A stretch of 64,000 nucleotides of DNA from Liolophura sinensis (taxonomy: Eukaryota; Mollusca; Polyplacophora; Chitonida; Chitonidae), in contig NC_088307.1 in NCBI RefSeq assembly GCF_032854445.1, forward strand, positions 28,550,484 through 28,614,483, written 5' to 3'. How positions within the stretch are numbered: the stretch's first letter is position 1; each line of letters starts with the position of its first letter. A program made the position numbers and the translations under genes. Positions 1 to 64,000 of the stretch are shown here, piece by piece. Below the pieces are notes generated by a model. The model saw only the letters and a list, made by a program, of their open reading frames with translations. It did not search any database and was not told the DNA's origin.

Positions 1-590
1 TTGCAGTTTTACAGCAGTCAGTGTCACAGTGTTACAGCAGTTAGTGTCAATGTTACAGCAGTCAGTGTCGCAGTTTTACAACAGTCAGTGTCACAGTTTT
101 ACAGCAGTCAGTGTCGCAGTTTTACACCGTCATGTCACTGTTTTATAACAGTCAGTGTTGCAGTTTTACAGCAGTTAGTGTCGCTGTTTTACAGCAGTCA
201 GTGTGGCTGTTTTACAGCAGTCAGTGTTGCAGTTTTACAGCAGTCAGTGTCGCTGTTTTACAGCAGTCAGTGTCGCTGTTTGACAGCAGTCAGCTTTGCA
301 GTTTTACAGCAGTTAGTGTCACAGTGTTAAAGCAGTTAGTGTCACAGTGTTACAGCAGTCAGTGTCGCAGTTTTACAGCAGTCACTGTTGCTGTTTTACA
401 GCAGCCAGTGTTGCAGTTTTACAGCAGCCAGTGTCGCTGTTTTACAGCAGTTAGCGTCGCAGTTTTACAGCAGTCAGTGTTGCTGTTTTACAACAGTCAG
501 TGTCACAGTTTTACAGTAGTCAGTGTTGCAGTTTTACAGCAGTCAGTGTCTCTGTTTTACAGCAGTTCGTGTCATAGTTTTACACTGTCA
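1..590. repeat. Minisatellite, 23-bp unit
   Basis: About 25 units of the form TTTTACAGCAGTCAGTGTCG in the Ig-gene intron downstream of exon 1900-2018. It continues off the left edge. Confidence 0.9.
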
Positions 591-689
591 AACTATGACA
601 AGAGTCTGTATCAAAAATTCAAAAATCAGTGCAAAATTTGACAAGTTTGTTTCAAAGTGTTTCAGGGAGACATAGGTCAAAGTTTTAGT

Positions 690-1012
690 GTCAAAGTTTT
701 ACAAGTCTATGTCAAATCATTACTTGCTCTACTGTCAATGTTTTACAAGTCCGTGTCAAATCACTACTTGCACTACTGTCAATGTTTTACAAGTTCATGT
801 CAAATCATTACTTGCTCTACTGTCAATGTTTTACAAGTCCATGTTAAATCATTACTTGCTTTACTGTCAATGTTTTACAAGTTCATGTCAAATCATTACT
901 TGCTCTACTGTCAATGTTTTACAAGTCTGTGTCAAATCATTACTTGCTCTACTGTCAATGTTTTACAAGTCTGTGTCAAATCATTACTTGCTCTACTGTC
1001 AATGTTTTACAA
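690..1012. repeat. Minisatellite, 44-bp unit
   Basis: About seven units containing CAATGTTTTACAAGT and AAATCATTACTTGCTCTACT. Related in part to the neighbouring arrays through TTTTACA and GTGTCAAA blocks. Confidence 0.88.
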
Positions 1013-1862: not shown

Positions 1863-1899
1863 CAGTCTGTGTTAAAGTATCCGCACAGGTGTGACTTAC

Positions 1900-2018
1900 C
1901 CAGAACTGTTACGTAGGCAGATGCTGACACATTGTTGAAGTCTGTGATCACATTACACAGGTATGTCCCCTCATCAGTCTTGATCACGCCACTGATATAC
2001 AGCTCCTGGCCGCCACGC
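1900..2018 (-). CDS. Ig gene exon: Ig domain 5, second half
   Basis: This 119-nt exon follows a CATTGTAG acceptor and ends at a GTAAGT donor in phase 1. It completes domain 5 with LYISGV, TDEGTYLC and an NVS sequon. The donor at 1894-1899 faces directly onto the minisatellite filling 1-1862, so the next exon is beyond the window. Confidence 0.75.
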
Positions 2019-5000
2019 CTACAATGTTAGCAACGTTACCCCCATTACTCTTACTTAGAGATACAGATCAATATTTTCTGTGTTTTACATCATGATTAAG
2101 AATATTTCACTCCTATGAGGGCAGTTAGGTCGATGTGCGAAGCAAACAGATCCACCTCAAACTCCTGAGTAAATGTCTAGGCGAAAGCACAGGGAGCTGG
2201 ATTCACAGCCATATTCAGGTGAGGTTCCTGAGTCTGAACACACTTTGACTCTTTAGCACAATCCTTTCTGTGCAATGAGTTTAACATTATGAATGCAGAT
2301 GAGCAATGTAGATAAACAAAATAGAAATATTCTATATACACCTCCCAGATGGTCTACTTATGACAGCAACACATAATTGTTTGAATTCCTTTGTTTTGCT
2401 CTTTTGCTCATGAACTTGGTCAATTAGTTATGATTTTCAGCAGTATTCAACATAAAATAACATGAAGCTGTTGAACTCTTGACATAAAACCATGATCATT
2501 CAACAGTTCTACATTCAGAGTATTTTCAATTGGTAAAGGTATCACCGGCCAATCATTTCTCAAAATGATAACCAATAATTTCCATGCTCTAAGTGAATTT
2601 TCTTACGCCACTGTTGTTCGGTCAGAAAGTTGTAGAGGTGCTCCATCTTTGTACCATCTGATCACAGGTGAAGGGTTGCCTTTAACCAAACACCGCAGGG
2701 TCAGTAGTTCCCCTTTAATCAGCTCCTGACCAGTAGGGGGCTCTGTAAAAATAGCTCCACCTGGTGGGAGATACCAGTGAAGTTGTAAAATGAATTATCA
2801 TGCAGTATGTACAATTACATTACAGTAAAACCACTACTGATACATTAGCATCCTTGTGGTGAACAGGTGAGGCATTATGACAGGCCTGTGACAGACAGCT
2901 GAGCTATTATCCTGCCTTCTGCCTGGCTTTGTACTGTGAAGTCCACACATTTTGGTTTCTTTTCCAGCTCTAAACACCTGAGCTATTATCTTACCCTCTG
3001 CCTGCCTTTGTACTCTGTAGTCACACAGGGTGCTGGTCCTAACCCAGACTGGGAAACCTGAGCTATTATCTTGCCTTTTGGCCACTGGTTACTGGAGTTT
3101 ACCTTTGAGCTGCCAAGAAACACTGAGGTCCAGGTTCAAACTTGCTGTAATCAGCTGAGTTATCATTACCTTAGCTTTGGGAAACCAATGATCTGTAATC
3201 AGGGGAGTTAATATTACCTTACCTTTGGAAAACCAATGATTTGTAATCAGGTGAGTTAATATTACCTGAGCTTTGGGAAACCAATGATCTGTAATCAGGG
3301 GAGTTAATATTATATTAGCTTTGGAAAACCAATGATCTGTAATCAGATGAGTTATACCTTAGCTTTGGAAACCAATGATCTGTAATCAGGTGAGTTAATA
3401 TTACCTGAGCTTTGGGAAACCAATGATCTGTAAGCGAGTGAGTTAATATTACCTGAGCTTTGGGAAACCAATGATCTGTAATCAGGTGAGTTAATATTAC
3501 CTGAGCTTTGGAAAACCAATGATCTGTAATCAGGTGAGTTATACCTTTGCTTTGGGAAACCAATGATCTGTAATCAGGGGAGTTATACCTGAGCTTTGGG
3601 AAACCAATGATCTGTAATCGAGTGAGTTAATATTACCTGGGCTTTGGGAAACCAATGATCTGTAACCAGGTGAGTTGATATTACCTGAGTTTTGGAAAAC
3701 CAATGATCTGTAATCAGGTGAGGTAATATTACCTGAGCTTTGGAAAACCAATGATCTGTAATCAGGTGAGTTAATATTAGCTGAGCTTTGGGAAACCAAT
3801 GATTTGTAATCAGGTGAGTTATACCTGAGCTTTGGAAAACCAATGATCTGTAATCGAGTGAGTTAATATTACCTGAGCTATGGAAAACCAATGATCTGTA
3901 ATCAGGTGAGTTAATATTACCTGAGCTTTGGAAAATCAATGATCCGTAATCAGGTGAGTTAATATTACCTGAGCTTTGGGAAACCAATGATCCGTAATCA
4001 GGTGAGTTAATATTACCTGAGCTTTGGAAAACCAATGATCTGTAATCAGGTGAGTTAATATTACCTGAGCTATGGAAAACCAATGATCTGTAATCAGGTG
4101 AGTTAATATTACCTGAGCTTTGGAAAACCAATGATCCGTAATCAGGTGAGTTAATATTACCTGAGCTTTGGGAAACCAATGATCCGTAATCAGGGGAGTT
4201 AATATTACCTGAGCTTTGAGAAACCAATGATCTGTAATCAGGTGAGTTAATATTACCTGAGCTTTGGAAAACCAATGATCTGTAATCAGGTGAGTTATAC
4301 CTGAGCTTTGGGAAACCAATGACCTGTAATCAGGTGAATTAATATTACCTGAGCTTTGGGAAACCAATGATCTGTAATCAGGTGAGTTAATATTACCTGA
4401 GCTTTGGAAAACTAATGATTTGTAATCAGGTGAGTTATACCTTTGCTTTGGGAAACCAATGATCTGTAATCAGGTGAGTTAATATTACCTGAGCTTGGGA
4501 AAACCAATGATCTGTAATCAGGTGAGTTAATATTACCTGAGCTTTGGAAAACCAATGATCTGTAATCATGTGAGTTAATATTACCTGAGCTTTGGAAAAC
4601 CAATGATCTGTAATCAGGTGAGTTATACCTTTGCTTTGGGAAACCAATGATCTGTAATCAGGTGAGTTAATATTACCTGAGCTTTGGGAAACCAATGATC
4701 TGTAATCAGGTGAGTTAATATTACCTGAGCTTTGGAAAACCAATGATCTGTAATCAGGGGAGTTATACCTGAGCTTTGGGAAACCAATGACCTGTAATCG
4801 AGTGAGTTAATATTACCTGGGCTTTGGGAAACCAATGATCTATAATCAGGTGAGTTAATATTACCTGAGCTATGGAAAACCAATGATCTGTAATCAGGTG
4901 AGTTAATATTACCTGAGCTTTGGGAAACCAATGATCTGTAATCAGGTGAGTTAATATTACCTGAGCTTTGGAAAACTAATGATTTGTAATCAGGTGAGTT

Positions 5001-8000
5001 ATACCTTTGCTTTGGGAAACCAATGATCTGTAATCAGGTGAGTTAATATTACCTGAGCTTTGGGAAACCAATGATCTGTAATCAGGTGAGTTAATATTAC
5101 CTGAGCTTGGGAAAACCAATGATCTGTAATCAGGTGAGTTAATATTACCTGAGCTTTGGAAAACCAATGATCTGTAATCACGGGAGTTAATATTCCCTGA
5201 GCTTTGGAAAACCAATGATCTGCAATCAGGTGAGTTAATATTACCTGAGCTTTGGAAAACCAATGATCTGTAATCAGGTGAGTTAATATTACCTGAGCTT
5301 GGGAAACCAATGATCTGTAAACGTACCAGTGACAGAGAGACGAGCAACACGCGACGTTCTTGACTGAGGAACTGAGCGGTCATTGATGGCCACACAGATG
5401 TAGTCGTCGGCGTCTTCCTGCTGGACATTCGAGAAGAACAGGTCTTGTCCTCCTGAGAGGGTAAAGATAACAGATACGGCAAACTCCCCGCTACGTATCA
5501 CAACTGGTGATGACCCCTTGTACCAGGTCACCGTCGCTGGAGGGATGCTGTTGGGTGGGGTACAGAGGAGTCGGGCAGTTTGCCCGGCGATGGCGTGAAT
5601 GTCCTGAGGCTGTTGAACAAACTCCAATCCCAATCCTGTAATACAGAAAAAATTCGAATCCCAATACTGTAACACAGAACAAACTCCAATCCCAATCCTG
5701 TAACACAGAACAAGCTCCAATTCCTATCCCATAGCACAGAACAAACTCAAACCCCAATCCTGTAACACAGTACAAACTCCAATCTCAAACCTGCAATGTA
5801 GAACAAACTACAATCCCAATTCTATAACACAGAACAAACCCCAATCTCAATCCTGTAACACAGAACAAACTCCAATTCCAATCCTGTAACACAGAGCAAA
5901 CTACAATCCCAATCCTGTAACACAGAACAAACTACAATCTCAATCCTGTAACACAGAACAAACTCCAATTCCACACCTGTAACACAGAACAAACTCCAAT
6001 CTCAATCCTGCAATGCAGAACAAACTCCAATCTCAATTCTGCAATGCAAAACAAAGTCCAATCTCAATCCTGTAACACAGAACAAACTCCAATTCCAATC
6101 CTGTAACACAGAACAAACTCCAATCTCAATCCTGTAACACAGAACAAACTCCAATCTCAATCTTGCAACGCAGAACAAACTCCAATCTCAATCCTGCAAC
6201 ACAGAACAAACTCCAATCTCAATCCTGTAACACAGAACAAACTCCAATTCCAATTCTGTAACACAGAACAAACTCCAATCTCAATCCTGCAATGCAGAAC
6301 AAACTCCAATCTCAATCCTGTAGCACAGAACAAACTCCAATCTCAATTCTGTACCACAGAACAAAAATTCCAATCCTGTAACACAGAACAAACTACAATC
6401 CCAATCCTGTAACACAGAACAAACTCCAATTCCAATCATGTAACACAGAACAAACTACATTCCCAATCCTGTAACACAACACAAACTCCAATTCCAATCC
6501 TGTAACACAGAGCAAACTACAATCCCAATCCTGCAATGCAGAACATACTCCAATCTCAAACCTGTAACACAGAACAACTACTTCTCATGGCATCTCCATT
6601 TATGTAAAAATCTATTCACTTTCACAAAATACTAAGTATTTTAAAGAGTTTGTCTAAACCTCTGAACAGTTTACTGCACTAAACTGTGGTTCATCTTAAT
6701 AATTTTTATTTTGATACAATATTTGATGAATTTCCCCTGACGTTAAATAAGCTCCCAAAATTAAAACTTCGAGCAGGAGTAAAGATTTTAAAAGTTGCTG
6801 CAGGTACAAATTTGTAAACATAGTGTATTTCTGAAAAATAGTCTGCTTTGTCTGCCCGACCAATATCCTTTCCAGTTGAAAGGAGAAATGAAAGTGAAAG
6901 AGAATATCTGTTGCTTACTTGGGACTTGGAGTGTCATGTATCCACTTGAGATGCTGCCCATGCTGTTTGTACCTTGACACAGGTACAAGCCTCCATCGCC
7001 GAGGGCAACAGACGAGAACTGCAACGTTCCGTTAACAAGGACAGATACTCGTTCCCCATTGGTCACTTCCACGCTGTTGTGCAGCCAGCGTACTCTAGGC
7101 ACGGGGTTACCTTCTACCACACAATCCACAGAAAGCGGTCGGCCTTCTGGGGCGAAAACTAGAGAAGGCGGGGAAATAACAAGGCTGGGTGTGGTATCAG
7201 GAACTGCAACCAATCAAAAATCAGGATTATAAAATCTGTGCATCGTCAGGTTGTTGGCATGTCATCTATGAAAAAATTCACGCAGGACCAACCTAAACGT
7301 TCCTATATAAGCACAGCTAACAGCTTCCTACCTCCAAGACCCCATAACGGTTGGGGATGGGTAATGTCAAAGATCGGTTAGGAAAACTTGGAGTGAAGCA
7401 ACATACTTCATGTTTGGGGGGCCTCCGTGGCTCAGTTGGTTAGCGCGCTAGCGTGGCGTGATGACCCACGAGTCTCTCACCAGTGCGGTCGCTGTGATTT
7501 CAGGTCCAGCTCATGCTGGCTTTCTCTCTGGCCGTATTTGGGAGGGTCTGTCAGCAACCTGCAGATGGTCGTGGGTTTCCCCCGGGCTCTGCCCGGTTTC
7601 CTCCCACCATAATGCTGGTTGCCGTCGTATAAGAGAAATATTCTTAAGTACGGCGTAAAACACCAATCAAATAAATAAATAAATACTTCATGATTTATAT
7701 ATGCATGAAATGTCCCCAATTTCCCTCGCTGATAAAAGTGACATTTCACACAGTTAGATAACACCTTTGCAGTTACACTTTGATATTTCACACACAGATG
7801 CCATGATGTTGAAAAAAAAATTAACACTTTATTTAATGATGTTCCAATACCTGAGCTCAGAGGGATGATGCCATAACACAGGTATGGTCAATTTGTACAT
7901 GCATATAAACATGTATGACCTTCTATATACACATCTGTGTTGGCCTGCAGCTGAAAAACATTTCTTAATTTGTTCTGATACACAAAATCATCATATTGTC

Positions 8001-22637: not shown

Positions 22638-22639
22638 TA

Positions 22640-29873: not shown

Positions 29874-30104
29874 AAGTATGTTATTGTATACATTTGAGCG
29901 TTGTTTGAAACCGTTCTGACGCCCAGACTTGGAAACAAACTCTCTAACCATTAGGCTATCGAAGCAGTCTGATTTTGTTGAAACCAGACGCTCGCCCAGT
30001 CGTATGGATATATGCCACCACTCATTGGCAATTACTGATGAACTTTTCCAAGGATGTGAGGATGAGGAGCAGCTTCCACAAAACTGGCAAAGACCACTTT
30101 AAAA

Positions 30105-30535
30105 TGAAGTATACATCAGATAAAAGACCATAAAAAACTGTCTAGGAAAATAGATGGATTTCATTTTTGGGAGGAATTTTTCTAACCAAGTAAAATTGTG
30201 TTAAAAGATCAGATTCTACAGTGGTCTGTTGTGACCCAGAGGGCATCAGTTACGTCACATCTATACTTTTTGCCTGAAATAACTTGTTTCAAGGTAAAAT
30301 CAGGGAATGCATTTATAGATCTATATGTATATGCACTTTGAATGATGAAATTCAACAGTCCAATATGTGTTTAAAAAGCCTTATGTGACGTAACTTGTAG
30401 CATTGTGGCCAGAAAAAGGTCACCATAGAATAAAATAGTCAAATGCATCTTACTAGGTTAAAGAAATGGGAAAAAAAATAATTGCACCTACTTTCCTGGA
30501 CAGTTTTTTGATAGGTTTTCATCTGATACTTCACT
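30105..30535. mobile_element. Palindromic MITE-like element, copy 1
   Basis: The two halves are inverted repeats of each other. For example, AAAAAACTGTCTAGGAAA near 30135 pairs with the complement of a similar block near 30510, and CAGTTACGTCACAT near 30248 pairs with ATGTGACGTAACT near 30385. A second full-length copy is at about 54530-54910 in the opposite orientation, and a fragment is at about 56135-56330. It has no coding capacity. Exact ends and target duplication were not resolved. Confidence 0.75.
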
Positions 30536-43661: not shown

Positions 43662-46600
43662 GTATGATTATGAGAGAGTTTCTCCCAACTCGCATTTTTC
43701 TCCCAAACTGATGACGCTGTGGAGAGATTTCCAGTCGTTCATCTCAACAGAAGAAATGCTACTGGGCTGAAGTCACTCTGGTTCCTAAACAAGATAAATC
43801 AGTTGGAAAGAAGCCTATATGTGAAATGGAAATTCTAATGGACTGATATTTTTTTTATCTTAGATCAACATATTTATTTGATTTTGATTGGTGTTTTACG
43901 CCATATATTCAAGAAAATTTCATTAATATGACGTATCAGATGGGAGAAAACAAGATCTTGCCGTGAGAAACAACCAACCAACCTACTGTAATGCTATTGA
44001 ACTCGTGCAAGTTCAGAAATCAGTTTAAAGTAATAATTAAAGCTTCAAGTTGGTGTCACTTATCTGAACAGTGTAGATGAAAACCGTGAGATAAACTGAA
44101 AAACATTTATGCCACACTCTAACACCCCACTCTTAATAGGTGTCAGTTGAAAATAATTGGATCATACAGCACTATATCTGACAGGTTCACTGTGTAAATC
44201 ACACGCTCTATTTCGTATAATATTAGGTCCCGTACATTCAGTATGCAGCTAAGAAAAATTAGCATGTAAAAATGGAAGAGTTGTAGGCCTAATGTTCTCG
44301 ATTTGTCTATAATTTGCATACTCGTACACAGTTCGTAATTTTTCGAATACTGGACACTGGATGCCATTTGGTTTGTCAACAATAAACCAGTCTTTTGTGA
44401 TGAATGGTTCTGGATAAACTTGAAGAACAGACCTTCGTACATTTTTCAAATTATACTGTACGGTACTTTGTATCTACATTTCTCTGGGTCATGTTTTTGG
44501 TGTTTCAGGAGATATATCGAGTGTGTGGGGAGATAACTCTGGACTGATATGGAAAACAGCAACAGAAGACAAAGACCAGGAAGATGAAACTGAGGTCAGG
44601 GGTTACACTTTTACTCTCCAGTTTTATGCAGTATGAAAGTTTTTGAAATTTGAAGTTACAACATCATGGTGACCACTTCGGTGAACCATCTAATGGTTAG
44701 ATCGTCTGCCTCGCAGTCGGTATAGACCTGGGATCAAACCTGGGACGAGTCATACAAAAGACTTGTGATCGTTGCTACTTTGTACTGTGACGTTGTTGTC
44801 TCCTATTGGCACAGGAAGCTAATCAGTGCATATTTATTGTATATGCCTGCCCGTGTTAATATAAATGTAAATATTGTTTACATTTAATGACTTCATTCGC
44901 TGAAATATTTAGTTTAGATGTTAGAGACATCCCTGTTATATGATGTCTCCATTAATTAGATAAATACTCTTATTTGGGGTTTTTTTAGGCTACTGTTCTT
45001 GCTCAGATTATTTCTCTCTGACAACTTTTTTTTTTTTTTTTATTGATTTGGTTTTGTGAGAAAACCTTACGTCACAGCTGTTAACTTTCTTCACATTTTC
45101 ATTATCAAATCGCTCTGGCGACCTGTTGGAGTATAAAACTTCACCAACCTGTGACAAAACTTTTCAGCCATATTGGAGCAGTATGGAAATGTAAAAAATC
45201 TTGTTCTCCAGAACCGCTAAGCCAGTTGCATTGAAAATTGATGTGGGTGTACAAGACTACTGGGAGTATCAGGATAGACGTAAAACAAGTTCAAATCCAG
45301 AAGATTCTTTTTCTTCAGTTAGCATGAAATTATTAGCACCAGACTACCAGTCCTAGCAGGCTTGGGTTTAAATCCAATCTTCTCCTCACCATTTTTACCA
45401 AATTCATTTCAGATTAAAGTATGGACACTATGGTTCAATTGTTGGAGATCATGATGCCCAGGATGGCTAAAATAGTTTTGTTTTCATGGAAAATATGAGA
45501 TATGGTTTACACAAGGTACATGAAATTCACTTGCTCTGAGAGTTTGTTGTGTAATATGGATTAGGTCTAGTGTTTTGCTCGTATTAGACAAACCTGGGTC
45601 TTTTCAGAAGAACATAGAACAAATAGATTGGTACGGTCTGTGTGGGAGAAAGTGGGAGGTTTTAGAAAGTGGACACTAAAAGTTGTGAGTACAGACTGTT
45701 TGGAAGCCTTATAACTGCATGCAGTTCTATATTTTCATAGATGGAAGAAATCATGGATGAGCAAGGTGACAGACGTCGAAAGAGCAGCAGACGACGGATG
45801 AAGAGGCGACCTTTCTCTCCAGATAAAACCGGCCAGGATCGAGTGAAGACGAGGACTGGAGTACCGTGTACTACCAAAAGGAAGCGGAAGGCCGGCAAGC
45901 CCCAACCAGAGGCAGCACATGACAGGCCATGTGATAGGTTAGCTAACGGTAAGCGGAAAGAGTTAAGAGTTTCTTACTCATTTTGTGTCATTATTTCTCT
46001 TTTTTTTTTCAAGTTAACAATACATGTGGTTTACAATGATACTGTAATTCTTAAACCTAACGTGTCCTTTTTGTGAAGCCCTGAAATTGGCTAACCCCAC
46101 CAATGTAGTTTTGTCTACATTGAAACGAAGGCCACATTTGAATCGTAGGATTCAAGCATACAAACTCATTGGTATATTGTCTGGTTGTCACAATAAGACA
46201 ACGCATGTGACATTGACATTTATATAGGGCATCTGAAGTGAAATCATGCCCCACCCAGCCTCAGTGTACTCACCTGACACCCCATCCAGCCTCAGTGTAC
46301 TCACCTGACACCCCACCCAGCCTCAGTGTACTCACCTGAGACCACATATGACACCTGACCCATCCTCAGTGTACTCACCTGACACCCCACCCAGCCTCAG
46401 TGTACTCACCTGGCAACCCACCCAGCCTCTGTGTACTCACCTGACACCCCACCCAGCCTCAATGTATTCACCAGATACCCTACCCAGCCTCAGTGTACTC
46501 ACCTGACACCCCACCCAGCCTCAGTGCACTCACCTGGCAACCCACCCAGCCACAGTGTACTCACCTGGCAACCCACCCAGCCACAGTGTACTCACCTGAT

Positions 46601-49600
46601 AACCCACCCAGCCTCTGTGTACTCACCTGATTCCAAACATGACGCCCAACTCAGCCTCAGTATACTCACCTGATTCCATACATGACACCCCACCCAGCCT
46701 CTGCATACTCATCTGACACCACATGACACCTTACCCAGCCTCATTTTGCTTACCTGATGCCACACAACACTTTACCCAGCCTCTCTATGCTCATTTAATG
46801 CCAACATGACAACCAGCCAGCCTCATTATACTCATCTGATTCTGACATGACACCCAGCCTTGGTATACTCATCTTACATCAAACATTACACACCACAGTA
46901 TACTGCCACCAGACATCACGCCCCTTCCAGCCTCAGTGTACTCACACCAGACATTACACCCACCCAGACTCAGTATAGTCACACTAGACATGACACCCAC
47001 CCAGCCTCAGTGTACTTACACTAGACATTACACCAACCCAGCCTCAGTATACTCACACTAGACATTACACCCCTTCCAGCTTCAGTGTACTCACACCAGA
47101 CATTACACCCACCCAGACTCAGTATAGTCACACTAGACATGACACCCACCCAGCCTCAGTGTACTTACACTAGACATTACACCAACCCAGCCTCAGTATA
47201 CTCACACTAGGCATTACACCCTTTCCAGCTTCAGTGTACTCACACCAGACTCAGTGGACTAATCGCTAGACAGTGATGAATTTACCATTACCTTGAAAAA
47301 ATATTATTTGACTATTGTGACACAGTCTCTTATTTTTATCCTTCAGGAACTCCCTTCTGCTGTGATTTGTGTAAATCACCACATGTGTGTAACCGTAGCA
47401 ACAAGCCAGGCAAATCCTCCAAGCCGACAAAGTACACGCCCAGTCCACGTCACAAGGTGGACCCCCTGACAGGACGAATGCTGCGGCTGTGTAACGCTTG
47501 TGGTGAGAAACAAAACTGTTACTGTAATTATCAGGTGAAACAAAGTTGTGTCATGTTACCTGTATTCATCGGGTGAAACGAAGTTGTGTAATGTCACTTG
47601 TAATCATCAGGTGAAACAAAGTTGTGTCATGTTACCTGTAATCATCAGGTGAAACAAAGTTGTGTTGTGTTACCTGTATTCATCGGGTGAAACAAAGTTG
47701 TGTAATGTCACTTGTAATCATCAGGTGAAACAAAGTTGTGTCATGTTACCTGTAATCATAAGGTGAAACAAAGTTGTGTCATGTTGCCTGTATTCATCGG
47801 GTGAAACAAAGTTGTGTAATGTCACCTGTAATCATCAGGTGAAGCAAATTTGTGTCCTGTCACCTGTAATCAGCAAGTGAAACAAAGCTGTGTTATGTTA
47901 CCTGTTTATAATCTTCAGGTGAATCAGTGGTGTGTCATGTTACCTGTTCATAATTATCAGGTGGAACAATGGTACCTCAAGTTATCTGTTCATAATCTTT
48001 TGGCGAATCAGTGGTGTGTCATGTTATCTGTTCATAATCATCTGGTGAATGAATGGTGTGTCATGTTACCTGTTCACAGTCATCAGGTGAATCAATGGTG
48101 TGTCATGTTACCTGTTCATAATCTTCAGGTGAAACAATGGTGTGTCGTGTTACCTGTTCATAATCATCAGGTGAATCAATGGTGTGTCATGTTACCTGTT
48201 CATAATCTTCAGGTGAATCAGTGGTGTGTCATGTTACCTGTTCATAATCTTCAGGTGAATCAATGGTGTGTCATGTTTCCTGTTCATAATCTTCAGGTGA
48301 ATCAATGGTGTGTCATGTTACCTGTTCATAATTGTCAGGTGAATCAATGGTGTATCATGTTACCTGTTCATAATCATCAGATGAATCAGTGGTGTGTCAT
48401 GTTACCTGTTCATAATCTTCAGGTGAATCAATGGTGTGCCATGTTACCTGTTCATAATCTTCAGGTGAATCAATGGTGTGTCATGTTACCTGTTCATAAT
48501 CTTCAGGTGAATCAATGGTGTGTCACGTTACCTGTTCATAATCTTCAGGTGAATCAGTGGTGTGTCATGTTACCTGTTCATAATCTTCAGGTGAATCAGT
48601 GGTGTGTCATGTTACCTGTTCATAATCATCAGGTGAATCAATGGTGTGCCATGTTACCTGTTCATAATCTTCAGGTGAATCAATGGTGTGTCATGTTACC
48701 TGTTCATAATCTTCAGGTGAATCAATGGTGTGTCACGTTACCTGTTCATAATCTTCAGGTGAATCAGTGGTGTGTCATGTTACCTGTTCATAATCTTCAG
48801 GTGAATCAGTGGTGTGTCATGTTACCTGTTCATAATCATCAGGTGAATCAGTGGTGTGTCATGTTACCTGTTCATAATCTTCAGGTGAATCAATGGTGTG
48901 CCATGTTACCTGTTCATAATCTTCAGGTGAATCAATGGTGTGTCATGTTACCTGTTCATAATCTTCAGGTGAATCAATGGTGTGTCACGTTACCTGTTCA
49001 TAATCTTCAGGTGAATCAGTGGTGTGTCATCTTACCTTTTCATAATCATCTGGTGAATCAATGGTGTGTCATGTTACCTGTTCAAAGTCATCAGGTGAAT
49101 CAATGGTGTGTCATGTTACCTGTTCATAATTATCAGGTGAATCAGTGGTGTGTCATGTTACCTGTTCATCATCATCAGGTGAATCAGTGGTGTGTCATGT
49201 TACCTGTTCACAAAAATCATCAGGTGAATCAATGGTGTGTCATGTTACCTGTTCATAATTATCAGGTGAATCAGTGGTGTGTCACGTTACCTGTACATAA
49301 TTGTCAGGTGAATCAGTGGTGTGTCATGTTACCTGTTCATAATCATCAGTTGAAACAGTGATGTGTCATGTTACCTGCTCATAATCATCAGGTGAAACAA
49401 TGGTGTGTCATGTTACCTGTTCATAATCATCAGGTGAATCAGTGGTGTGTCATGTTACCTGTTCATAGTCATCAGGTGAATCAATGGTGTGTCATGTTAC
49501 CTGTTCATAATCTTCAGGCGAATCAGTGGTGTGTCATGTTACCTGTACACAATCATCCGGTGAATGAATGGTGTGTCATGTTACCTGTTCATAATCATCA

Positions 49601-52600
49601 GGTGAATCAGTGGTGTGTCATGTTACCTGTTCATAATTATCAGGTGAATCAGTGGTGTGTCATGTTACCTGTTCATAATTATCAGGTGAATCAATGGTGT
49701 GTTATGTTACCAGCTCATAATTATTAGGTCATACAAAATTGTCACATTTTACGTGTTTATCATCACCAGGTGAAACAGATCTGTGTCATGTTGACATATT
49801 GTCTGTTTCATTCGCAGGCCTCGCATTTGACCGCTCTGACCGTCCAAGGAAGGCTCGTGTCCTCCCGCCCCCAGAGGACAAAGAGAAGTACCTGGACGAG
49901 GCTAAGCAGTTTGGTCAACGACTCAGTGTGGAGCTGAATGACCCTGATGGTAAGTCCCCTAACTCATCGCATGGACCAGGCTAAGCAGACAGGTCAGGGG
50001 ACTCAGTGTGGAGCTGAATGACCCTGATGGTAAGTCCCCTAGCTCATCGCATGGACCAGGCTAAGCAGACAGGTCAGGGGACTCAGAGTGGAGCTGAACG
50101 ACCCTGATGGTAAGTCCCCTAACTCATCGCATGGACCAGGCTAAGCAGACTGGTCAGGGGACTCAGTGTGGAGCTGAATGACCCTGATGGTAAGTTCCCT
50201 AACTCATCGCATGGACCAGGCTAAGCAGACAGGTCAGGGGACTCAGTGTGGAGCTGAACGACCCTGATGGTAAGTCCCCTGGCTCATCACATGGACCAGG
50301 CTAAGCTGACTGGTCAGGGGACTCAGAGTGGAGCTGAATGACACTGATGGTAAGTCCCCTAGCTCATCTCATGGACGAGACTAAGCAGACAGGTCAGGGG
50401 ACTCAGTGTGGAGCTCAACAACCCTGATGGTAAGTCCCCTAACTTATCACATGGACGAGACTAAGCAGACAGGTCAGGGGACTCAGAGTGGAGCTGAATG
50501 ACCCTGATGGTAAGTCCCCTAACTCATCAAATGGACCAGGCTAAGCAGACAGGTCAGGGGATTCAGAGTGGAGCTGAATGACCCTGATGGTAAGTCCCCT
50601 AACTCATCAAATGGACCAGGCTAAGCAGACAGGTCAGGGGACTCAGTGTGGAGCTGAACGACCCTGATGGTAAGTCCCCTAACTCATCACATGGACGAGA
50701 CTAAGCAGACAGGTCAGGGGACACAGTGTGGAGCTCAACAACCCTGATGGTAAGTCCCCTAACTCATCGCATGGACCAGGCTAAGCAGACAGGTCAGGGG
50801 ACTCAGTGTGGAGCTGAACGACCCTAATTGTAAGTCCCCTAACTCATCTCATGAACCAGACTAAGCAGACAGGTCAGGGGACTCAGAGTGGAGCTGAATG
50901 ACCCTGATGGTAAGTCCCCTAACTCATCACATGGACCAGGCTAAGCAGACAGGTCAGGGGACACAGTGTGGAGCTAAATGACCCTGATGGTAAGTCCCAT
51001 AGCTCATCACATGGACTAGACTAAGTAGACAGGTCAGAAGACTAAGTGTGGAGCTGAACGACCCTGATGGTAAGTCCCCTAACTCATCAAATAGACGAGA
51101 CTAAGCAGACAGGTCAGGGGACTCAGTGTGGAGCTGAATGACCCTGATGGTAAGTCCCCTAACTCATCAAATGGACCATGCTAAGCAGACTGGTCAGGGG
51201 ACTCAGAGTGGAGCTGAATGATCCTGATGGTAAGTCCCCTAGCTCATCTCATGGACCAGGCTAAGCAGAATGGTTAGGGGACTCAGTGTGGAGCTGAATG
51301 ACCCTGATGGTAAGTCCCCTAACTCATCGCATGGACCAGGCTAAGCAGACAGGTCAGGGGACTCAGTGTGGAGCTGAACGACCCTGATGGTAAGTCCCCT
51401 AGCTCATCACATGGACCAGGCTAAGCAGACTGGTCAGGGGACTCAGAGTGGAGCTGAACGACCGTGATGGTAAGTCCCCTAACTCATCACATGGACCAGG
51501 CTATGCAGACTGGTCAGGGGACTCAGAGTGGAGCTGAACGACCCTGATGGTAAGTCCCCTAACTTATCGCATGGACCAGGCTAAGCAGAATGGTCAGGGG
51601 ACTCAGAGTGGAGCTGAACGACCCTGATGGTAATTCCCCCAGCTCATCAAATGGACGAGACTAAGCAGACAGGTCAGGGGACTCAGTGTGGAGCTGAATG
51701 ACCCTGAGGGTAAGTCCCCTAACTCATCACATGGACCAGGCTAAGCAGACAGGTCAGGGAACTCAGTGTGGAGCTGAACGATCCTGATGGTAAGTCCCCT
51801 AACTCATCACATGGACCAGGCTAAGCAGACTGGTCAGGGGACTTAGTGTGGAGCTGAATGACCCTGATGGTAAGTCCCCTAACTCATCACATGGACCAGG
51901 CTAAGCAGACAGGTCAGGGGACTCAGTGTGGAGCTGAATGACCCTGATGGTAAGTCCCCTAACTCATCACATGGACCAGGCTAAGCAGACAGGTCAGGGG
52001 ACTCAGTGTGGAGCTGAACGACCCTGATGGTAAGTCCCCTAACTCATCACATGGACCAGGCTAAGCAGACAGGTTAGGGGACTCAGAGTGGAGCTGAATG
52101 ACCCTGATGGTAAGTCCCCTAACTCATCACATGGACCAGGCTAAGCAGACAGGTCAGGGGACTCAGAGTGGAGCTGAATAACCCCGATGGTAAGTCCCCT
52201 AGCTCATCACATGGACCAGGCTAAGCAGACGTGTCAGGGGACTCAGAGTGGAGCTGAATGACCCTGATGGTAAGTCCCCTAGCTCATCACATGGACTAGA
52301 CTAAGTAGACAGGTCAGGGGACTCAGAGTGGAGCTGAATGACCCTGAGGGTAAGTCCCCTAACTCATCACATGGACCAGGCTAAGCAGACAGGTCAGGGG
52401 ACTAAGAGTGGAGCTGAACAACCCTGATGTTCTTTAAGCCAGCCGAGAGGAGGTAGGTGTGTCACTTTCGCATCACTGAGACGAGGTAGGTGTGTAACTT
52501 CCGCATCACCAAGTTGAGGTAGGTGTGTCACTTCCGCATCACCGAGACGAGGTAGGTGTGTCATTTCCGCATCATCGAGATGAGGTAGGTGTGTCATTTC

Positions 52601-55600
52601 CGCATCATCGAGATGAGGTAGGTGTGTTTTTTGGGTTAACACTAAAATGCAAAATGGAAGAAAAAGTAAATTGCCTTTGTGTGTTTTGTCTGATCATGAT
52701 GTTTTTTACAAATTTCCTGTTTTACGTGGCTTTCTACTAATGTCATGCTGTTTAACATGTTTACAATGTATACAACTTCATCAGTGCCTAGGGTTTGAAA
52801 TGCCATGGTTCTTTACAAGAGTGAAATGTTTAATTGCATTCCTGCTGACCGACTTTGTTTTATCTTTCTCTGGACTACAGCAGAGAGACTCTACTGCCCT
52901 CAGTTTAAGTTCAAAGCCTGCGGCTGTCTACAGAGCTACATTCTCTTTGAAGGTAAGACACTGTTTAACATGCCCTGTCTACATCATCATACATTCTTAT
53001 CAGTGACTCTGAGGTCACAGGTTCAAATCCTGCTCTGGTTCGTTTGGCCCTGGTTTTAAATCAGGAAGTCTGTCAGATGAAACTGTCCACCCATGGCAGA
53101 GCTGAATAAAAAAAATGACTGGCTACTGTGTTAAACAGCAAAGAAATGACCTTGTAAGGATTCAGATAACGACACCGTCTTGTAATGGTGAAATTAGTAA
53201 GACAAATAAAACTGTAATCAAATTAATGAATAAACAGCAAGACAAATTTCAGACAAGAAAGTACATGTGATAATTAAAACAAATTGATCCGGTGACACTG
53301 TTTTGTAACGGTGATCCGGTGACACTGTTTTGTAACGGTGATCCGGTGACACTGTTTTGTAACGGAGAAACAAACCACAAAAAAGCTCTTGAAATGCAGT
53401 GCAGTATGGGTTAATTGTTGCTGTTGTCTTGTCAGGTGATCAGGAACATTCCAGCCAGAGAGCGGAGAAACTGCTGAAGCTGGTGAAGGAAGCCAAACAG
53501 CTGCGAACCCTCAAGTATTACTCCCAGGATGAAGTGAAGAAACCTCAGCGGTGAGTGACAAGAAAACAGTACAGAATCTTCAGCACCATGACAACGGCAC
53601 CCATATTCCTGGCCCTGAGAGTCCATTGATCACTCGTCCTTATATTCCGGCCTGTGGATCATGAAGCTGCCTTAGACTTCAGGCTTACTCTTAACTTGTA
53701 GTATTATTCCTGAACTAAGATTTGACCTTCAGTTAGTCATGTCGATTATTCCTGAACTATGATTTGACCTTCAATTAGTCATGTTGTATTATTCCTGAAC
53801 TATGATTTGACCTTCAGTTAGTCATGTTGTATTATTCCTGAGCTAAGATTTGACCTTCAATTAGTCATGTTGTATTATTCCTGAACTGAGATTTGACCAT
53901 CAGTTAGTCATGCTGTACTATTTTTGAACTGAGATTTGACCATCAGTTAGGCATGTTGTATTATTCCTGAACTGAGATTTGACCATCAGTTAGTCATGTT
54001 GTATTATTCCTGAACTGAGATTTGACCTTCAGTTAGTCATGTTGTATTATTCCTGAACTATGATTTGACCTTCAATTAGTCATGTTGTATTATTCCTGAA
54101 CTGAGATTTGACCATCAGGTAGGCATGTTGTATTATTCCTGAACTGAGATTTGACCATCAGTTAGTCATGTTGTATTATTCCTGAACTGAGATTTGACCT
54201 TCAGTTAGTCATGAAGATCTATGACGCAGACTCTCAGAATTAAAGTCAAAATCCTTGTGGTAGGTCAGTTTTGAAGTTTAGTCTACGTCTGACAGCTTCC
54301 TGATCCTGAGGCCTGGTTGAAAGTCAAATTTTGGATAGTGATCTGTTGCTCATTGTAAAATAGCTTATTTGTGTGCCAGTACATCAAAACCTTGATTTAC
54401 AGCTTGCCTAAAACGGCTGTAAAGATAGCTGTAAACTCTAAAACAGCTGTAAAGATAGCTGTACACTATTTGCCAGTTACGTCTGTTTTCTCACAGCCAA
54501 GCCTGATACTGGTGGGATATTACAGGCAAAAAAAACACTAAAATAAACTATATTTGAGATAAAAGACCATTGAACACTCTCCATACAATGGTTCAGTTAA
54601 TTTTATTTTTTTTTTTTAGAAATTTTTGAAATCTGGTGACCTTTTTTGATAATACTGGAACCATTGACATCACATCAGGTTTTTGACACTTATCACCCAT
54701 AAAAAATGCATAGACATATAAATTTATGAATGTATTCGCCAAATAAACCTTGAAACTAACTATTTCAGGCAAACATTGTGGATTCCACATCACTGATGCC
54801 TTCTGGTTTACTACAAACCACTGGAGAATCTCGTGTTTCAAAACCAATTTACTTGGTTGAAAAACTTTTAAAAAAAGGAATCAAACTATTTTTCTGCATA
54901 GGGTTCATTTGTCTGATATATAATTCCTTTTAGTGCATTCTTTGCCTTTATAGTCTATCGGTGCATAAGGGGCTGGTTTTGGCTGAGTAGTTGCTTGTCT
55001 CTCAGTCACGTCCGGTTCTGGTTCAATCCCGGCCATGGACAGGGAGTTTATAGATTCTCCCTGATCTCTCTGTTTGTGGGGCCTCACTGACATCATGCCG
55101 TTAATGATGCTCATGTGACAGCTTACACAGTCTAATTAGTGTTTGTTGAAGATCACCCATGTTCATGTGACAGCTTACACAGTCTAATTAGTGTTTGTTG
55201 AAGATCACCCATGTTCATGTGACAGCTTACACAGTCTAATTAGTCTTTGTTAAAGACCACCTATGTTCCACCATACAATATGGTGTGTATATGTGCATCA
55301 TATGTGAGAAACCTTGTCACGAACTTGCCAAAGGCTAGTGGTTTGTTCCATCCTTTTCTGAGCTCCACCAATCATAAAGCTGACCTCCATAATACACATT
55401 ATGTAGGCGAAAAATCCTTGAAGATGGCGGTAGACAACAATCAATCAGAACTTCTAGTCACCGAACAACCATCATCCGTGGGGAGCCTGAGCAGAATGAT
55501 AGTGGGATCAAGCAACCTTCACGTGATGCAAGCGAACAAAAATGGGACAACGCCTCTTCTTTATGTCACACATGATGTGCCAAATACTTGTACCACAGGT

Positions 55601-58600
55601 TATATGAAAAACAGTATCCAATTTGTTGATACAACAAATGGCACCATGTAAACAGGTCCTACAACAAATGGCACCTTGTAAACAGGTCCTACAACAAATA
55701 GCACCTTGTAAACAGGTGCTACGACAAATGGCACCCTGTAAACAGGTCCTACGACAATTGGTACCTTGTAAACAGGTCCTACGACAATTGGCACCTTGTA
55801 AACAGGTCCTAGAACAAATGGCACCTTGTAAACAGGTCCTAGAACAAATGGCACCTTGTAAACAGGCCCTTCGACAATTGGCACCATGTAAACAGGTCCT
55901 ACGACAAATGGCACCTTGTAAACAGGTCCTTCGACAAATGGCACCTTGTAAACAGGCCCTACGACAAATGGCACCATGTAAACAGGTCCTAGAACAAATG
56001 GCACCTTGTAAACAGGTCCTAGAACAAATGGCACCTTGTAAACAGGTCCTTCGACAAATGGCACCTTGTAAACAGGTCCGACGACAAATGGCACCTTGTA
56101 AACAGGTCCTAAGACCCCCCAAAATACACCACTAACATGAAGTATATTTCACATGGAAGGCTGTTAAAAAACTATTCCTAGAAATAGTTCATTTTATTTT
56201 TGTCACAATTTTTTCAACCTAATAAAATCCATTTGAAAGTTTGGATTCTACAGTGGCCCTTTCTGACAACACTGGAACCAGCGAGGCCACATCAGGATTT
56301 TGTCACTTAAGATGCATAGAGTAATATACGATTTCTCTTTTGCCTGTCAAGTACAGGTCCCGTAACATTGGCCTAGGGAATGGGATGAAGAAGTCCAAGC
56401 TGTTTGAGGAGTTTGTGATGGAGAAGAGACATTATCTAAAGGAGACACTGAAGCTTTGTGAGCGAGCTGTGCAGAAGATACTGATCTACTCCAACAACTT
56501 CATACACAAGAAACTCAAATCTGAGGACGTAAGTGACTTCACACACAAGAAACTCAGATCTGAGGGGGTAAGTGACTTCATACACAAGAAACTAAAATCT
56601 GAGGAAGTAAGTGACTTCATACACAAGAAACTCAAATCTGAGGATGTAATTGACTCCACACACAAGAAACTCAAATCTGAGGACGTAAGTGACTTCACAC
56701 ACAAGAAACTCAAATCTGAGGGCGTAAGTGACTTCATACACAAGAAACTAAAATCTGAGGACCTAAGTGACTTCATACACAAAAAACTCAAATCTGAGGA
56801 TGTAACTGACTCCACACACAAGAAACTCAAATCTGAGAACGTAAGTGACTTCACACACAAGAAACTCATATCTGAGGGCATAAGTGACTTCACACACAAG
56901 AAATTCAAATCTGAGGACGTAAGTGACTTTATACACAAGAAACTCAAATCTGAGGATGTAAGTGACTTCATACATAAGAAACTCAAATCTGAGGATGTAA
57001 AGTGCCTTTATACAAAAGAACCACAAATCTGAGGATGTGATTGACTTCACATACAAGAAACTCAAATCTGAGGACATAAGTGACTTCATACACAAGAAAC
57101 TCAAATCTGAGGACGTAAGTGACTTCCCACACAAGAAACTCACATCTGAGGACCAAGTGACTTCATACATAAGAAACTCAAATCTGAGGATGCAAGTGAC
57201 TTCAAACACAGGAAACTCAAATCTGAGGATGCAATTGACTTCATACACAAGAAACTCAAATCTGAGGACGTAAGTGACTTCATACCTAAGAAACTCACAT
57301 CTGGGGATTTATGTGACTTCATACATAAGCAACTCAAATCTGTGGATGCAGGTGACTTTACACACAAGAAACTAAAATCTAGGGATGTAAGTGACTTCAT
57401 ATATAAGAAACTCAAATCTGAGGATGTAAAGTGCCTTTATACAAAAGAACTACAAATCTGAGGATGTGATTGACTTCACACACAAGAAACACAAATTTGA
57501 GGGGGTAAGTGACTTCATACCCAAGAAACTCAAATCTGAGGATGCAAGTGAAATCATACACAAGAAACTCAAATCTTAGGATGTAAGTGACTTCATACCT
57601 AAGAAACTCACATCTGGGGATTTATGTGACTTCATACATAAGCAACTCAAATCTGTGGATGCAGGTGACTTTACACACAAGAAACTAAAATCTAGGGATG
57701 TAAGTGACTTCATACACAAGAAACTCAAATCTGAGGACGTAAGTGACTTCATTCACAAGAAACTCAAATCTGAGGACGTAAGTGAAATGATACAAAACAA
57801 ACTCAAATCTGAGGGGGTAAGTGACTTCATACACTAGAAACTCAAACCTGAGGATGTAACTGACTCCAAACACAAAAAAACTCAAATCTGAGGATGTAAG
57901 TGACTTCATACACAAGAAACTCAAATCTGAGGACATAAGTGACTTCATACACAAGAAACTCAAATCTGAGGACATAAGTGACTTCATACACAAGAAACTC
58001 AAATCTGAGGACGTAAGTGACTTCCCACACAAGAAACTCACATCTGGGGATTTATGTGACTTCATACATAAGCAACTCACATCTGAGGACCAAGTGACTT
58101 CATACATAAGAAACTCAAATCTGAGAATGCAAATGACTTCCCTCACGAGAAACTCAAATCTGAGGACGTAAGTGAAATCATACACAAGAAACTCAAATCT
58201 GAGGACATAAGTGACTTCATACACAAGAAACTCAAATCTGAGGATGTAAAGTGCCTTCATACAAAAGAACCACAAATCTGAGGATGTAATTGACTTCACA
58301 CACAAGGAACTCAAATCTGAGGATGTAAGTGACTTCATACCCAAGAAACTCAAATCTGGGGATGCAAGTGACTTCATACACAAGAAACTCAAATCTGAGG
58401 ATGTAAATGACTTCCCACACAAGAAACTCAGATCTGAGGACATAAGTGACTTCATACACAAGAAACTCACATCTGAGGACCAAGTGATTTTATACACAAG
58501 AAACTCAAATCTGAGGATGCAAGTGAAATCATGCACAAGAAACTCAAATCTGAGGATGTAAGTGACTTCCCATACAAGAAGCTCACATTTGAGGACCAAG

Positions 58601-61600
58601 TGATTTCCTACATAAGAAACTTAAATCTGAGGATGCAAGTGAAATCATACACAAGAAACTCAAATCTGGGGATGTAGTGACTTCATACACAAGAAACTCA
58701 CATCTGAGGACCAAGTGATTTCATATGTAAGAAACTCAGATCTGAAGATGCAAGTGACTTCCCACACAAGAAACTCAAATCTGAGGATGTAAGTGCCTTC
58801 ATACAAAAGAACCACAAGTCTGAGGATGTAGTGACTTCATACACAAACTCAAATCTGAGAACGTCAGTGACCTCATACACAAGACACACAAATCTGAGGA
58901 CGTAAGTGACTTTATACACAAAAAACTCACATTTTGGGACGTAAGTGACGTCATACACAAAAAACTCACATCTGGGGACGTAAGTGACTTCATACACAAG
59001 AAACTCGCATCTGGGGACGTAAGTCACTTCACATACAAGAAACTCAGATTCAGGACTCAAACCAGGGTATTTATGAAGTTCAAGAACTAAATTCCAAAAC
59101 TGAAGATGTAAGTTTCAATTACTTGATTCCCATATCTCCGCTCACATAAAAGTCTGATGACATAATTTAGCTGTAATCTGAAGAAATAGTTTTAACACTT
59201 TAACATTCCAATAACTTGATCATGCTCAAAACACATGAGTTCTGAATATGTAAACTTTAACCCGTTTGTTCCCGTAACTTGATCATGATCAAAACACATA
59301 AATTCTAAAGAAAATGTATACGTTAACCCTTCAGTAATAGACACATTGCTTGTCTGCATACACACATTTTTATTACATCTTTTCAGAGCAACTGTCGTGC
59401 CCGCCGAGTGATTGGTAAAGCTGCCTTAGGGTTATTACCGCCCTTGTCAGAACTGGATAAGAAGAAATGCTGCATCGACAAGTGTGTGATGGTAAGACAG
59501 AAACTTGTGGTACAGTTATTGAACCAGTATTCCAATAGCACTTGTGAGAACAGCATTTTAGGGGAATCGCTGCCTTGTTCAGGCAATTGCTGCCTTGACC
59601 CACTGAGGCAATTGCTACTTTGACTCACAGAGGCAATTGCAGCCTTGACTCACTGAGGCAATTGTTGCTTTGATTTACTGAGGCAATTGCTACCTTGACT
59701 CATTGAGGCAGTAGCTGCTTTGACTCACTGAACTCCAGAAAAAAACATGATTTTGCTTTGTGTGTCACACCCAAATTAGATAATTAGGGCACTACTGAGT
59801 TTAGGCCTTGACTAGTGAGGTCGCTGACTTTTATCTGTCCACTCAGGATGACTTTTACACCTGGGTGAGTATTACCGGTACATAATTTCTTATCCTGATC
59901 TAAGTTCTTTTCTCACTGATGGCATTTTTGTTTAGCGGATATTTGCTGATACAGAATATTTGAAAATCATATCAAGTTGTTACTTTCTGGGATAGAAATG
60001 ATTGTAAACATTTGTAAAGAAGTGATTCATTTATTTATTTCATTGGTGTTTTATGCCATACTCAAAAATATTTCACTTATTCGACGATGACCAGCATTAT
60101 GGTGGGAGGAAACCTGGCAGAGGCCGGGGAAACCCAGGACCATCTGCAGGTTGTAAAGAATTGAACACCAAGCAATCAGATGACACCAAAGTTTGTACCC
60201 TGCTCCCGTGACAGGTAGCAGTGACTCACAGCCGTCTTCTACAGGAATGGAGAGACAGGGCCACCCAGGGCCAGGCAGAAGCGAGGCGGGTGCTGGCAGA
60301 GATGCTTACTCCCTCAGGTATGCAACATTGGGGGGAGGGGGTAGGGATTAGAGCCTCGAGTATTGACTGAGAAGCGGGGTGTCGATCATTTGTTTTACCT
60401 TGAAGTGAGTGTTGCTCTTATGCTTCATCTAGTGTAGTGTTGCTGGAGCCAGTGCGGTATTGCTTGAGCCAATGCAGTGTTGCTTGAGCCAATGTAGTAT
60501 TACTTGAGCCAATGTAGTGTTGCTTTAGCCAGTGCAGTATTGCTTGATCCAGTGCAGTGTTGCTTGATCCAGTGCAGTATTACTTGATCCAGTGCAGTAT
60601 TACTTGATCCAGTGCAGTATTGCTTGATCCAGTGCAGTGTTGCTTGATCCAATGCAGTATTACTTGATCCAGTGCAGTGTTGCTTGATCCAATGCAGTAT
60701 TACTTGATCCAGTGCAGTGTTGCTTGATCCAATGCAGTATTACTTGATCCAGTGCAGTATTACTTGATCCAGTGCAGTATTGCTTGATCCAGTGCAGTGT
60801 TGCTTGATCCAATGCAGTATTACTTGATCCAGTGCAGTGTTGCTTGATCCAATGCAGTATTACTTGATCCAGTGCAGTATTACTTGATCCAGTGCAGTAT
60901 TACTTGAGCCAGTGCAGTGTTGCTTGATCCAGTGCAGTATTACTTGAGCCAATGTAGTGTTGCTGGAGCCAGTGCAGTATTGCTTGATACAGTGCAGTAT
61001 TGCTTGATCCAGTGCAGTGTTGCTTGATCCAGTGCAGTATTACTCGATCCAGTGCAGTATTACTTGATCCAGTGCAGTATTACTTGGGCCAGTGCAGCAT
61101 TGCTTGATCCAGTGCAGTATTACTTGATCCAGTGCAGTGTTGCTTGATCCAGTGCAGTATTACTTGAGCCAATGTAGTGTTGCTGGAGCCAGTGCAGTAT
61201 TGCTTGATCCAGTGCAGTGTTGTTTGATCCAGTGCAGTGTTGCTTGATCCAGTGCAGTATTACTTGATCCAGTGCAGTATTACTTGATCCAGTGCAGTAT
61301 TACTTGGGCCAGTGCAGCATTGCTTGATCCAGTGCAGTATTACTTGATCCAGTGCAGTGTTGCTTGATCCAGTGCAGTATTACTTGAGCCAATGTAGTGT
61401 TGCTGGAGCCAGTGCAGTATTGCTTGATCCAGTGCAGTGTTGTTTGATCCAGTGCAGTGTTGCTTGATCCAATGCAGTATTACTTGATCCAGTGCAGTAT
61501 TACTTGATCCAGTGCAGTGTTGCTTGAGCCAGTGCAGTGTTGCTTGAGCCAGTGCAGTGTTGCTTGATCCAGTGCAGTATTACTTGAGCCAATGTAGTGT

Positions 61601-63622: not shown

Positions 63623-63774
63623 CATACATGTTTATGGATGGAGATTACACCATGTTCGACTGGGGGGGTGGGGTGGGGTGCCTGTGTGTGAGTGCGACAT
63701 ACACCATATATTGATTCGATTTTGAATTCTGGTAGGTGCTTGAATTTAGTCTTTTGGGTCTTGTGTTGGCACAT

Positions 63775-64000
63775 GTAGACTACATGTATTCCTATTTTAG
63801 CTGGGCCAGTGTAGTATTGCCCTTATCTGAGGTTTGGCACATGTAGATTACTTGTATTGCTATTATGGCTGGACGAGTGTAGTATTGCCCTTAGCAGTGG
63901 GTTGCCATATGTAAACTACATGTATTGCTATTATGGCCGGGCCAGTGTAGTATTGCCCTTATCAGTGGGTAGGCACAAGTAGATTACATGTATTGCTATT
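63775..64000. repeat. Tandem repeat, ~68-bp unit, at least 3 copies, leaving the window
   Basis: Units CTATTATGGCTGGGCCAGTG plus TAGTATTGCCCTTATC and CACATGTAGATTACATGTAT. It follows the probable last exon. Confidence 0.85.

Follow-up and report, generated by a model that had tools for sequence, protein, structure and literature searches.

Tandem arrays that copy splice junctions, probable mirages, in introns of a chiton genome

Genes and tandem arrays at the locus

The window, which is the whole stretch of DNA analysed here (64,000 nucleotides, positions 28550484-28614483 of contig NC_088307.1, forward strand), comes from a chiton, a mollusc. The genome assembly comprises 609,464,459 bp in 632 contigs. 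In the portion consulted, the genome paper of Liolophura japonica gives 632 scaffolds with a total of 609,495,693, as well as HiFi reads with a mean of 8,347 bp at 14x, and this read mean exceeds the length of the arrays described below (PMC11068029). TRF returned 72 rows for the window, corresponding to 41 once merged. Tandem arrays covered 39% of the window, as compared with 7.0% in a set of 20 windows of 10 kb from elsewhere in the genome. The coverage of five stretches of myosin genes was 21%.

Exon positions were derived from tblastn searches with six homologs combined with reading-frame phase, from Pfam Ig domains and, in the case of ZZZ3, from PDB entry 2yum. The genes and arrays are listed in Table 1. 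The six homologs, three of which are named (sturgeon, sea cucumber and tick), located exons 2-8 of the GATA-like zinc-finger gene in the window, exons 3 and 5 being weakly placed. Exon 9 was found at ~64264, just beyond the window, and exon 1 was assigned from open reading frame and phase alone. A Pfam scan of the GATA-like protein gave no match above the cut-off.

Table 1. Genes, exons and tandem arrays of the window (window coordinates)
Feature	Position	Strand	Description	Evidence
Ig-domain gene		-	four exons within the window, four more in the flank	Pfam (window); by reading (flank)
48-bp array	3145..5320	.	starts 6 bp past the donor of Ig exon 5327-5635; unit not exon-derived	TRF
Ig-domain exon	5327..5635	-	phase 1-1, acceptor TTACAG|GATTGGG	Pfam Ig_3 5.8e-11
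Probable acceptor-side mirage, Ig exon 5327-5635	5615..6577	-	31-bp unit, ~31 copies	TRF
ZZZ3 gene		-		PDB 2yum match, 4.4e-19
Uncharacterised conserved animal protein gene	45741..60317	+	GATA-like zinc finger and conserved C-terminal region; runs on into the L009 flank	
31/62-bp and related arrays	46249..47250	.	GATA-like intron 1	TRF
42-bp array	47525..49792	.	GATA-like intron 2; not exon-derived	TRF
Exon 3, GATA-like gene	49818..49949	+		tblastn, homologs P0003-P0006, E 0.066 to 3e-4
Probable donor-side mirage, GATA-like exon 3	49893..52429	+	80-bp unit, ~32 copies	TRF
33-bp array	52443..52627	.	donor-like GAG|GTAGGT units	TRF
30-bp array	55630..56115	.	beside an ORF without Pfam match, GATA-like intron 5	TRF
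Exon 6, GATA-like gene	56357..56528	+		tblastn, all six homologs, E 6e-8 to 2e-19
Probable donor-side mirage, GATA-like exon 6	56497..59046	+	39-bp unit, ~65 copies	TRF

A dispersed repeat was noted at ~30086-30400 of the window, with at least 51 matches in the genome when 40 of 1126 candidates were scored. A translated stretch like GGRKPGRAQGKPTTIRRLLADLPTYGRRGSQHELDLNSQRPHW recurs at -8597..-8388 (L010) and in several open reading frames of the window; it is probably part of a dispersed element. In the L009 flank, a 78-bp array of ~39 copies was observed at window coordinates 66430-69496, its unit containing an exact CAG|GTAAGTGG.

Arrays that copy exon-intron junctions

Copies of splice junctions were searched for with a junction probe of 30 nt, for which at least 23 matches within 1.5 kb on either side were required. 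Exon 3 of the GATA-like gene joins exon 2 in phase as LCNACG|LAF and ends in the donor junction GACCCTGATG|GTAAGT, which is the source of the array at 49893-52429. The repeated unit consists of the last ~57 nt of the exon, GTAAGT and the first intron bases. The probe found 18 further copies, all of them towards the intron, and the GT was kept in 30 of the 30 traced copies. A similar arrangement was observed at exon 6. The conserved donor junction ...SNNFIHKKLKSED|GTAAGT gave rise to the array at 56497-59046, with a unit formed by the last 32 nt of the exon and GTAAGTG. Here 35 further copies were detected on the intron side, none on the exon side; of the 58 copies traced, 38 retain the GT. The frame of exon 6 stays open for ~167 codons beyond its donor, through the 39-bp array (window 56358-57030; VSDFIHKKLKSED-like repeats), and the inner donors, if used, would add in-frame peptide repeats.

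On the opposite strand, the unit of the array at 5615-6577 was found to be TGTGTTACAG plus the first 21 nt of the Ig exon, the array being located upstream of the real acceptor. The probe revealed 29 further copies on the intron side but none towards the exon; of the 30 copies traced, 27 retain the AG. A fourth junction-copying array lies outside the window at -3344..-1612; its units repeat the donor of a different exon of the Ig gene, MEVIG|GTACGC. All four arrays of the locus thus share one layout, in which the 1.5 kb searched towards the intron contain 18-35 junction copies and the exon side has none. In the ZZZ3 gene, the probe detected no junction copies at the five splice sites probed.

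The direction of copying could be assessed from the exons themselves. The end of exon 6, YSNNFIHKKLKSE, is invariant or near-invariant among the homologs of the GATA-like gene. For exon 3, conservation is clearest in the sea cucumber homolog, which has the same exon end, ELNDPD, and the myosin exon ends described below fall inside the Pfam domain. Since the copied exon ends are conserved, the exon is taken as the source of the copies at exon 6, exon 3 and in the myosin cases. The same conservation speaks against an array that came first and from which the exons recruited their junctions. Such a reversed order is conceivable for exon ends that lack conservation, the Ig exons being the candidate, and is very improbable overall.

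The sequence-only reading had counted five arrays copying exon sequence: three donor-side, one acceptor-side and one at a coding end. Two donor copies (exons 3 and 6) and the acceptor copy stood, and the other two were not supported. For the third donor copy, given without coordinates, the best candidate seen was the array at 52443-52627 (GAG|GTAGGT), but homology places the next exon at 52881. An alternative in which this array is the mirage of a 10-14-nt exon 4, joined as 'ASREE', was likewise discarded, as the homologs put exon 4 at 52881-52952; the array is apparently not derived from an exon. The coding-end copy is probably the array at 55630-56115, and its adjoining open reading frame, located within GATA-like intron 5, gave no Pfam match at E 0.1. 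Two further arrays said to start within about 35 bp of a donor were recovered at 22 bp (47525-49792, which follows the donor of exon 2 and ends 25 bp before the acceptor of exon 3) and 6 bp (3145-5320). The arrays do occur on both strands, as had been proposed, and their hosts are two genes (Ig-type on the minus strand, GATA-like on the plus strand) instead of four unrelated ones.

Recurrence in other genes

Within the discovery locus of 84 kb, defined as the window plus 10 kb on each side, the junction probe was positive at 3 of 19 donors and 1 of 17 acceptors. A second set of sites was taken from myosin genes. A whole-genome Pfam search located myosin-head exons at 81 places (for kinesin, 132 exon places were found in the genome), and five 10-kb stretches were picked by exon density, before arrays there were looked at. 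Of the 27 exon cores listed, 26 were used, the core at L035 1745-2110 being left out as it has stops inside. Among the resulting 51 sites, 3 of 25 donors and 1 of 26 acceptors were positive, namely the donors of L031 exon 3460 and of L032 exons 6415 and 8930, and the acceptor of L034 exon 3002. None of the junctions probed in the L033 myosin stretch was positive.

The four myosin positives compare with ~0.84 expected from the frequency of a one-sided array edge at random positions (1.64%, n 10,000), with P 0.011. The corresponding frequencies were 2.1% in the 84-kb locus, 1.6% in the myosin stretches and 0.7% (0.72%) in random windows. In these random windows, a single donor out of 13 was positive (L011) and no acceptor out of 13; the 26 sites were hand-read in 4 of 20 windows with exons taken from a coding-score list, likely exons in the other windows were unused, and the array beside the L011 exon had already been seen when that exon was chosen. 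Taken together, the sites outside the discovery locus (myosin and random) gave 5 positives out of 77, with 1.02 expected (P 0.004).

Some cases were kept out of the counts. A donor copy at L035 4391-5434 (exon ...KNYHYIKQGGDHK|GTGAGTA) and an acceptor copy at L028 6232-6911 were both found via their arrays. At the donor of L035 exon 304, an array that begins 59 bp away contains an exact repeat of 16 nt of the junction; this donor fails the strict probe and was not counted. The L031 4594 donor and one L027 acceptor were left out, as their anchors were not found.

Over all sets, 9 of 113 junctions were positive, corresponding to 7 of 57 donors and 2 of 56 acceptors. This contrast between donors and acceptors is not significant (Fisher P 0.16). 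The unit lengths of the positive cases ranged from 31 to 80 bp, and no exon-side copies were present in any of the nine. The growth of arrays from exon-intron junctions, as put forward from the window, is real there and recurs in unrelated chiton genes, such as myosin.

Apart from the arrays, near-identical coding stretches were observed 8 kb apart in L027 (393-713 and 8512-8832), which are presumably EF-hand exons. Near-identical coding stretches were also present 4.6 kb apart in L015 (4198-5958 and 8808-9998); these resemble intermediate-filament genes.

Overlap of arrays with donors and acceptors

The overlap between arrays and splice sites was evaluated from 8 TRF junction overlaps among the 113 sites, which are small numbers. 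In a random null, the arrays were collapsed to one unit and placed anywhere over the loci. The pooled donor overlaps (6) exceeded the 1.00 expected (P 0.0008), and the acceptor overlaps (2) compared with 0.95 expected (P 0.24). The 84-kb locus alone showed 4 overlaps versus 0.97 expected (P 0.017). In a strict null, the seeds of the collapsed arrays (35 arrays) were kept within the 44 known introns, some of which may hide unlisted exons, as listed cores alone were annotated. Donor overlaps were again in excess, with 6 versus 1.92 when seeds stayed in their own intron (P 0.010) and versus 1.12 when any intron was allowed (P 0.001). For the acceptors, 2 overlaps were observed versus 1.90 (own intron) or 1.13 (any intron). 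The 84-kb locus was not significant under this null (4 versus 2.80, P 0.29, or versus 2.01, P 0.13). In the introns outside the discovery locus, 3 donor overlaps were found versus 0.49 expected (P 0.009). Because the locus does not reach significance under the strict null, the window that prompted the study is by itself not strong evidence; the other sample is strong but small.

Three sub-readings of how such arrays are seeded can be weighed against these values. According to the first, tandem duplications occur uniformly, those internal to exons are removed and those straddling a junction survive, with no process directed at donors. In introns as crowded with arrays as these, some arrays would have to touch a junction. 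The value for the 84-kb locus (4 versus 2.8, P 0.29) is in agreement with this, as is the acceptor overlap, which lies at expectation (2 versus 0.95-1.9). Acceptor copies need no special process. The donor overlap outside the discovery locus (P 0.009) is at odds with uniform seeding, and selection against exon overlap should lower the donor overlap below expectation, yet the overlap exceeds it. All in all, chance combined with tolerance by the gene comes close to an even bet.

The second sub-reading is that transcription-linked damage, R-loops or the sequence at 5' splice sites raises the rate of short tandem duplication. It would account for the pooled donor overlap (6 versus 1.0-1.9), and it is weakened by the small counts and by the non-significant contrast between donors and acceptors. 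We infer, as a weaker result, that donors receive more seeds than chance would give. A process acting at exon boundaries in general, as had been suggested, was not borne out, given that acceptor overlaps are at chance and donors alone exceed it. The lower number of acceptors could also arise without any donor process, if copied upstream acceptors were more often used by the spliceosome and so purged by selection. Such purging would explain fewer acceptors and not donors above chance.

Donor-like motif in array units

The array units were also searched for the donor consensus. MAG|GTRAGT was present as an exact match in 7 of 92 units, versus 0.30 expected from flanking sequence. When one mismatch at most was allowed in this 9-mer, 15 of the 92 units were positive versus 3.2 expected, and the reversed motif gave 3 versus 3.0. 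None of 25 permuted motifs reached the ratio of the donor 9-mer. Outside the 84-kb locus, the 9-mer was found in 8 of 52 units versus 1.85 expected (reversed motif, 3 versus 1.92). The 20 random windows alone showed no contrast, with 3 of 38 units versus 1.2 for the donor 9-mer and 3 versus 1.3 for the reversed one.

At the genome scale, tandem triples of CAGGTRAGT gave 906 hits versus 232 for the reversed motif (hits and not arrays), with flank counts of 8 and 5. Tandem triples of GGTAAGT showed no donor excess, with 1619 hits versus 2369 reversed and flank counts of 44 and 41. In the first 4.12 Mb of C1, 9 donor-motif and 7 reversed-motif arrays of GGTAAGT were present among the matches listed. 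Whether donor-like sequence is enriched in arrays thus depends on the measure, and most of it is untied to a known exon.

The 15 units with the donor 9-mer were divided into 5 that belong to exon-copying arrays and 10 that are not known exon copies; 3 of the 15 are antisense to the nearest gene. For this reason, the motif excess is not mainly exon-derived. In a third sub-reading, CAGGTRAGT-like sequence is prone to tandem duplication anywhere and exon donors are just a subset. The 10 unattributed units point in this direction, including the antisense arrays at 3145-5320 and 46249-46840, in which CAGGTGAGT runs against the direction of the Ig gene and of the GATA-like gene, respectively, and so does the excess of CAGGTRAGT triples (906 versus 232). 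Such arrays are few, unannotated exons could account for some of them, and the GGTAAGT core shows no excess. A motif-driven origin seems unlikely.

The same counts bear on the other two sub-readings. The excess of the 9-mer in the pooled units and genome-wide speaks against chance and tolerance, to which the absent GGTAAGT excess lends support. Seeding that favours donors gains from the pooled units, in which the 9-mer exceeds its reversed and permuted versions; the 7-mer GGTAAGT count goes against it, and the random windows alone lack a motif contrast. This donor-favouring process is possible and unproven, and its odds fall short of even. Its broadest form, in which minisatellites of the chiton are seeded preferentially at 5' splice sites genome-wide and donor-directed duplication continually feeds intron growth and supplies spare splice sites, is put forward tentatively, being a little more doubtful still.

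Fate of the copies and proposed mechanism

Selection that keeps the splice sites of the copies had been offered as one explanation of the pattern. The preservation of splice columns was compared with that of the other columns in nine arrays. The values (splice/other) were 0.993/0.948 for the exon 3 array, 0.855/0.896 for the exon 6 array, 0.900/0.909 and 0.933/0.950 for the Ig acceptor and donor arrays, 0.960/0.946 for L031, 0.824/0.943 and 1.000/0.934 for the two arrays of L032, 0.982/0.961 for L034 and 0.853/0.875 for L011. Splice columns were better kept in 4 of the 9 arrays and worse kept in 5, so the copies look unselected, which lends no support to that explanation.

Whatever the seeding, it is quite probable that the arrays are mirages, that is, tandem duplications straddling a junction, followed by multiplication of the copies inside the intron and tolerated by the gene. 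In this scheme, a stretch of ~30-80 bp across the splice junction would be tandemly duplicated. The copies may then multiply within the intron through slippage or unequal exchange. The copy proximal to the exon would still supply the junction, and splicing would tolerate the array; as long as this copy works, the gene can tolerate the rest.

Comparison with known systems

The pattern had been regarded as having no standard name. Junction-spanning tandem arrays are in fact called mirages in lancelets, and related cases are known in human. The lancelet papers, in the portions consulted, describe mirages as tandem repeats spanning the exon-intron boundaries of Adh3, troponin C, the globins BflGb6 and BflGb9, and PGBD5. 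They occur on the donor or acceptor side of unrelated genes with a unit of about 10-160 bp, regular splicing is undisturbed, and the copy number varies between haplotypes and somatically (PMC3087553, PMC3902484). The chiton arrays resemble them in that the units span the exon-intron junction (9 of 113 by probe), with copies on the intron side only, in that both 5' (7/57) and 3' (2/56) boundaries are affected, and in the unit length of 31-80 bp, which falls within the lancelet range. Unlike BflGb6, for which 3-6 units are given in the text consulted, the chiton arrays reach up to ~65 units. The lancelet work, as far as its consulted portions go, relied on RT-PCR and haplotypes, whereas the chiton arrays are known from one assembly alone.

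In human segmental duplications, minisatellite expansion at exon-intron boundaries alters gene structure, according to the part of the study consulted (PMC2812944). The chiton minisatellites, expanded at such boundaries, are similar to these internal tandem repeats. The human repeats, in the same part of that source, differ between recent paralogs and have transcript support, whereas the chiton arrays lie in different gene families and are known from DNA. In the openly licensed literature searched, mirages were found for lancelets alone and none for molluscs, which is not proof of absence. Outside the discovery locus, 5 of 77 chiton splice sites carry them. This suggests that they are neither a lancelet oddity nor limited to a few genes, and it allows this oddity of gene structure to be tested in a mollusc genome. 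As gene models and transcriptomes of the chiton genome have been published, the donor preference of tandem duplication can be tested with them, and they can show how splicing passes dozens of copied donors.

A third parallel is the model of Rogers, in which introns are gained by tandem duplication of an AGGT segment and for which the consulted portion names fission yeast, ATP2A1 and potato (PMC4974935). The chiton arrays share with it the tandem duplication of splice-signal sequence. AG|GT is present in the duplicated segment at several donors, among them CACAG|GTGAGT and ATCAG|GTATGT, and absent at others (GATG|GT, GAC|GT). Unlike that model, which in the portion consulted yields a new intron, the chiton intron appears enlarged, and the same chiton resources can show whether mirage arrays make new introns or in-frame repeats.
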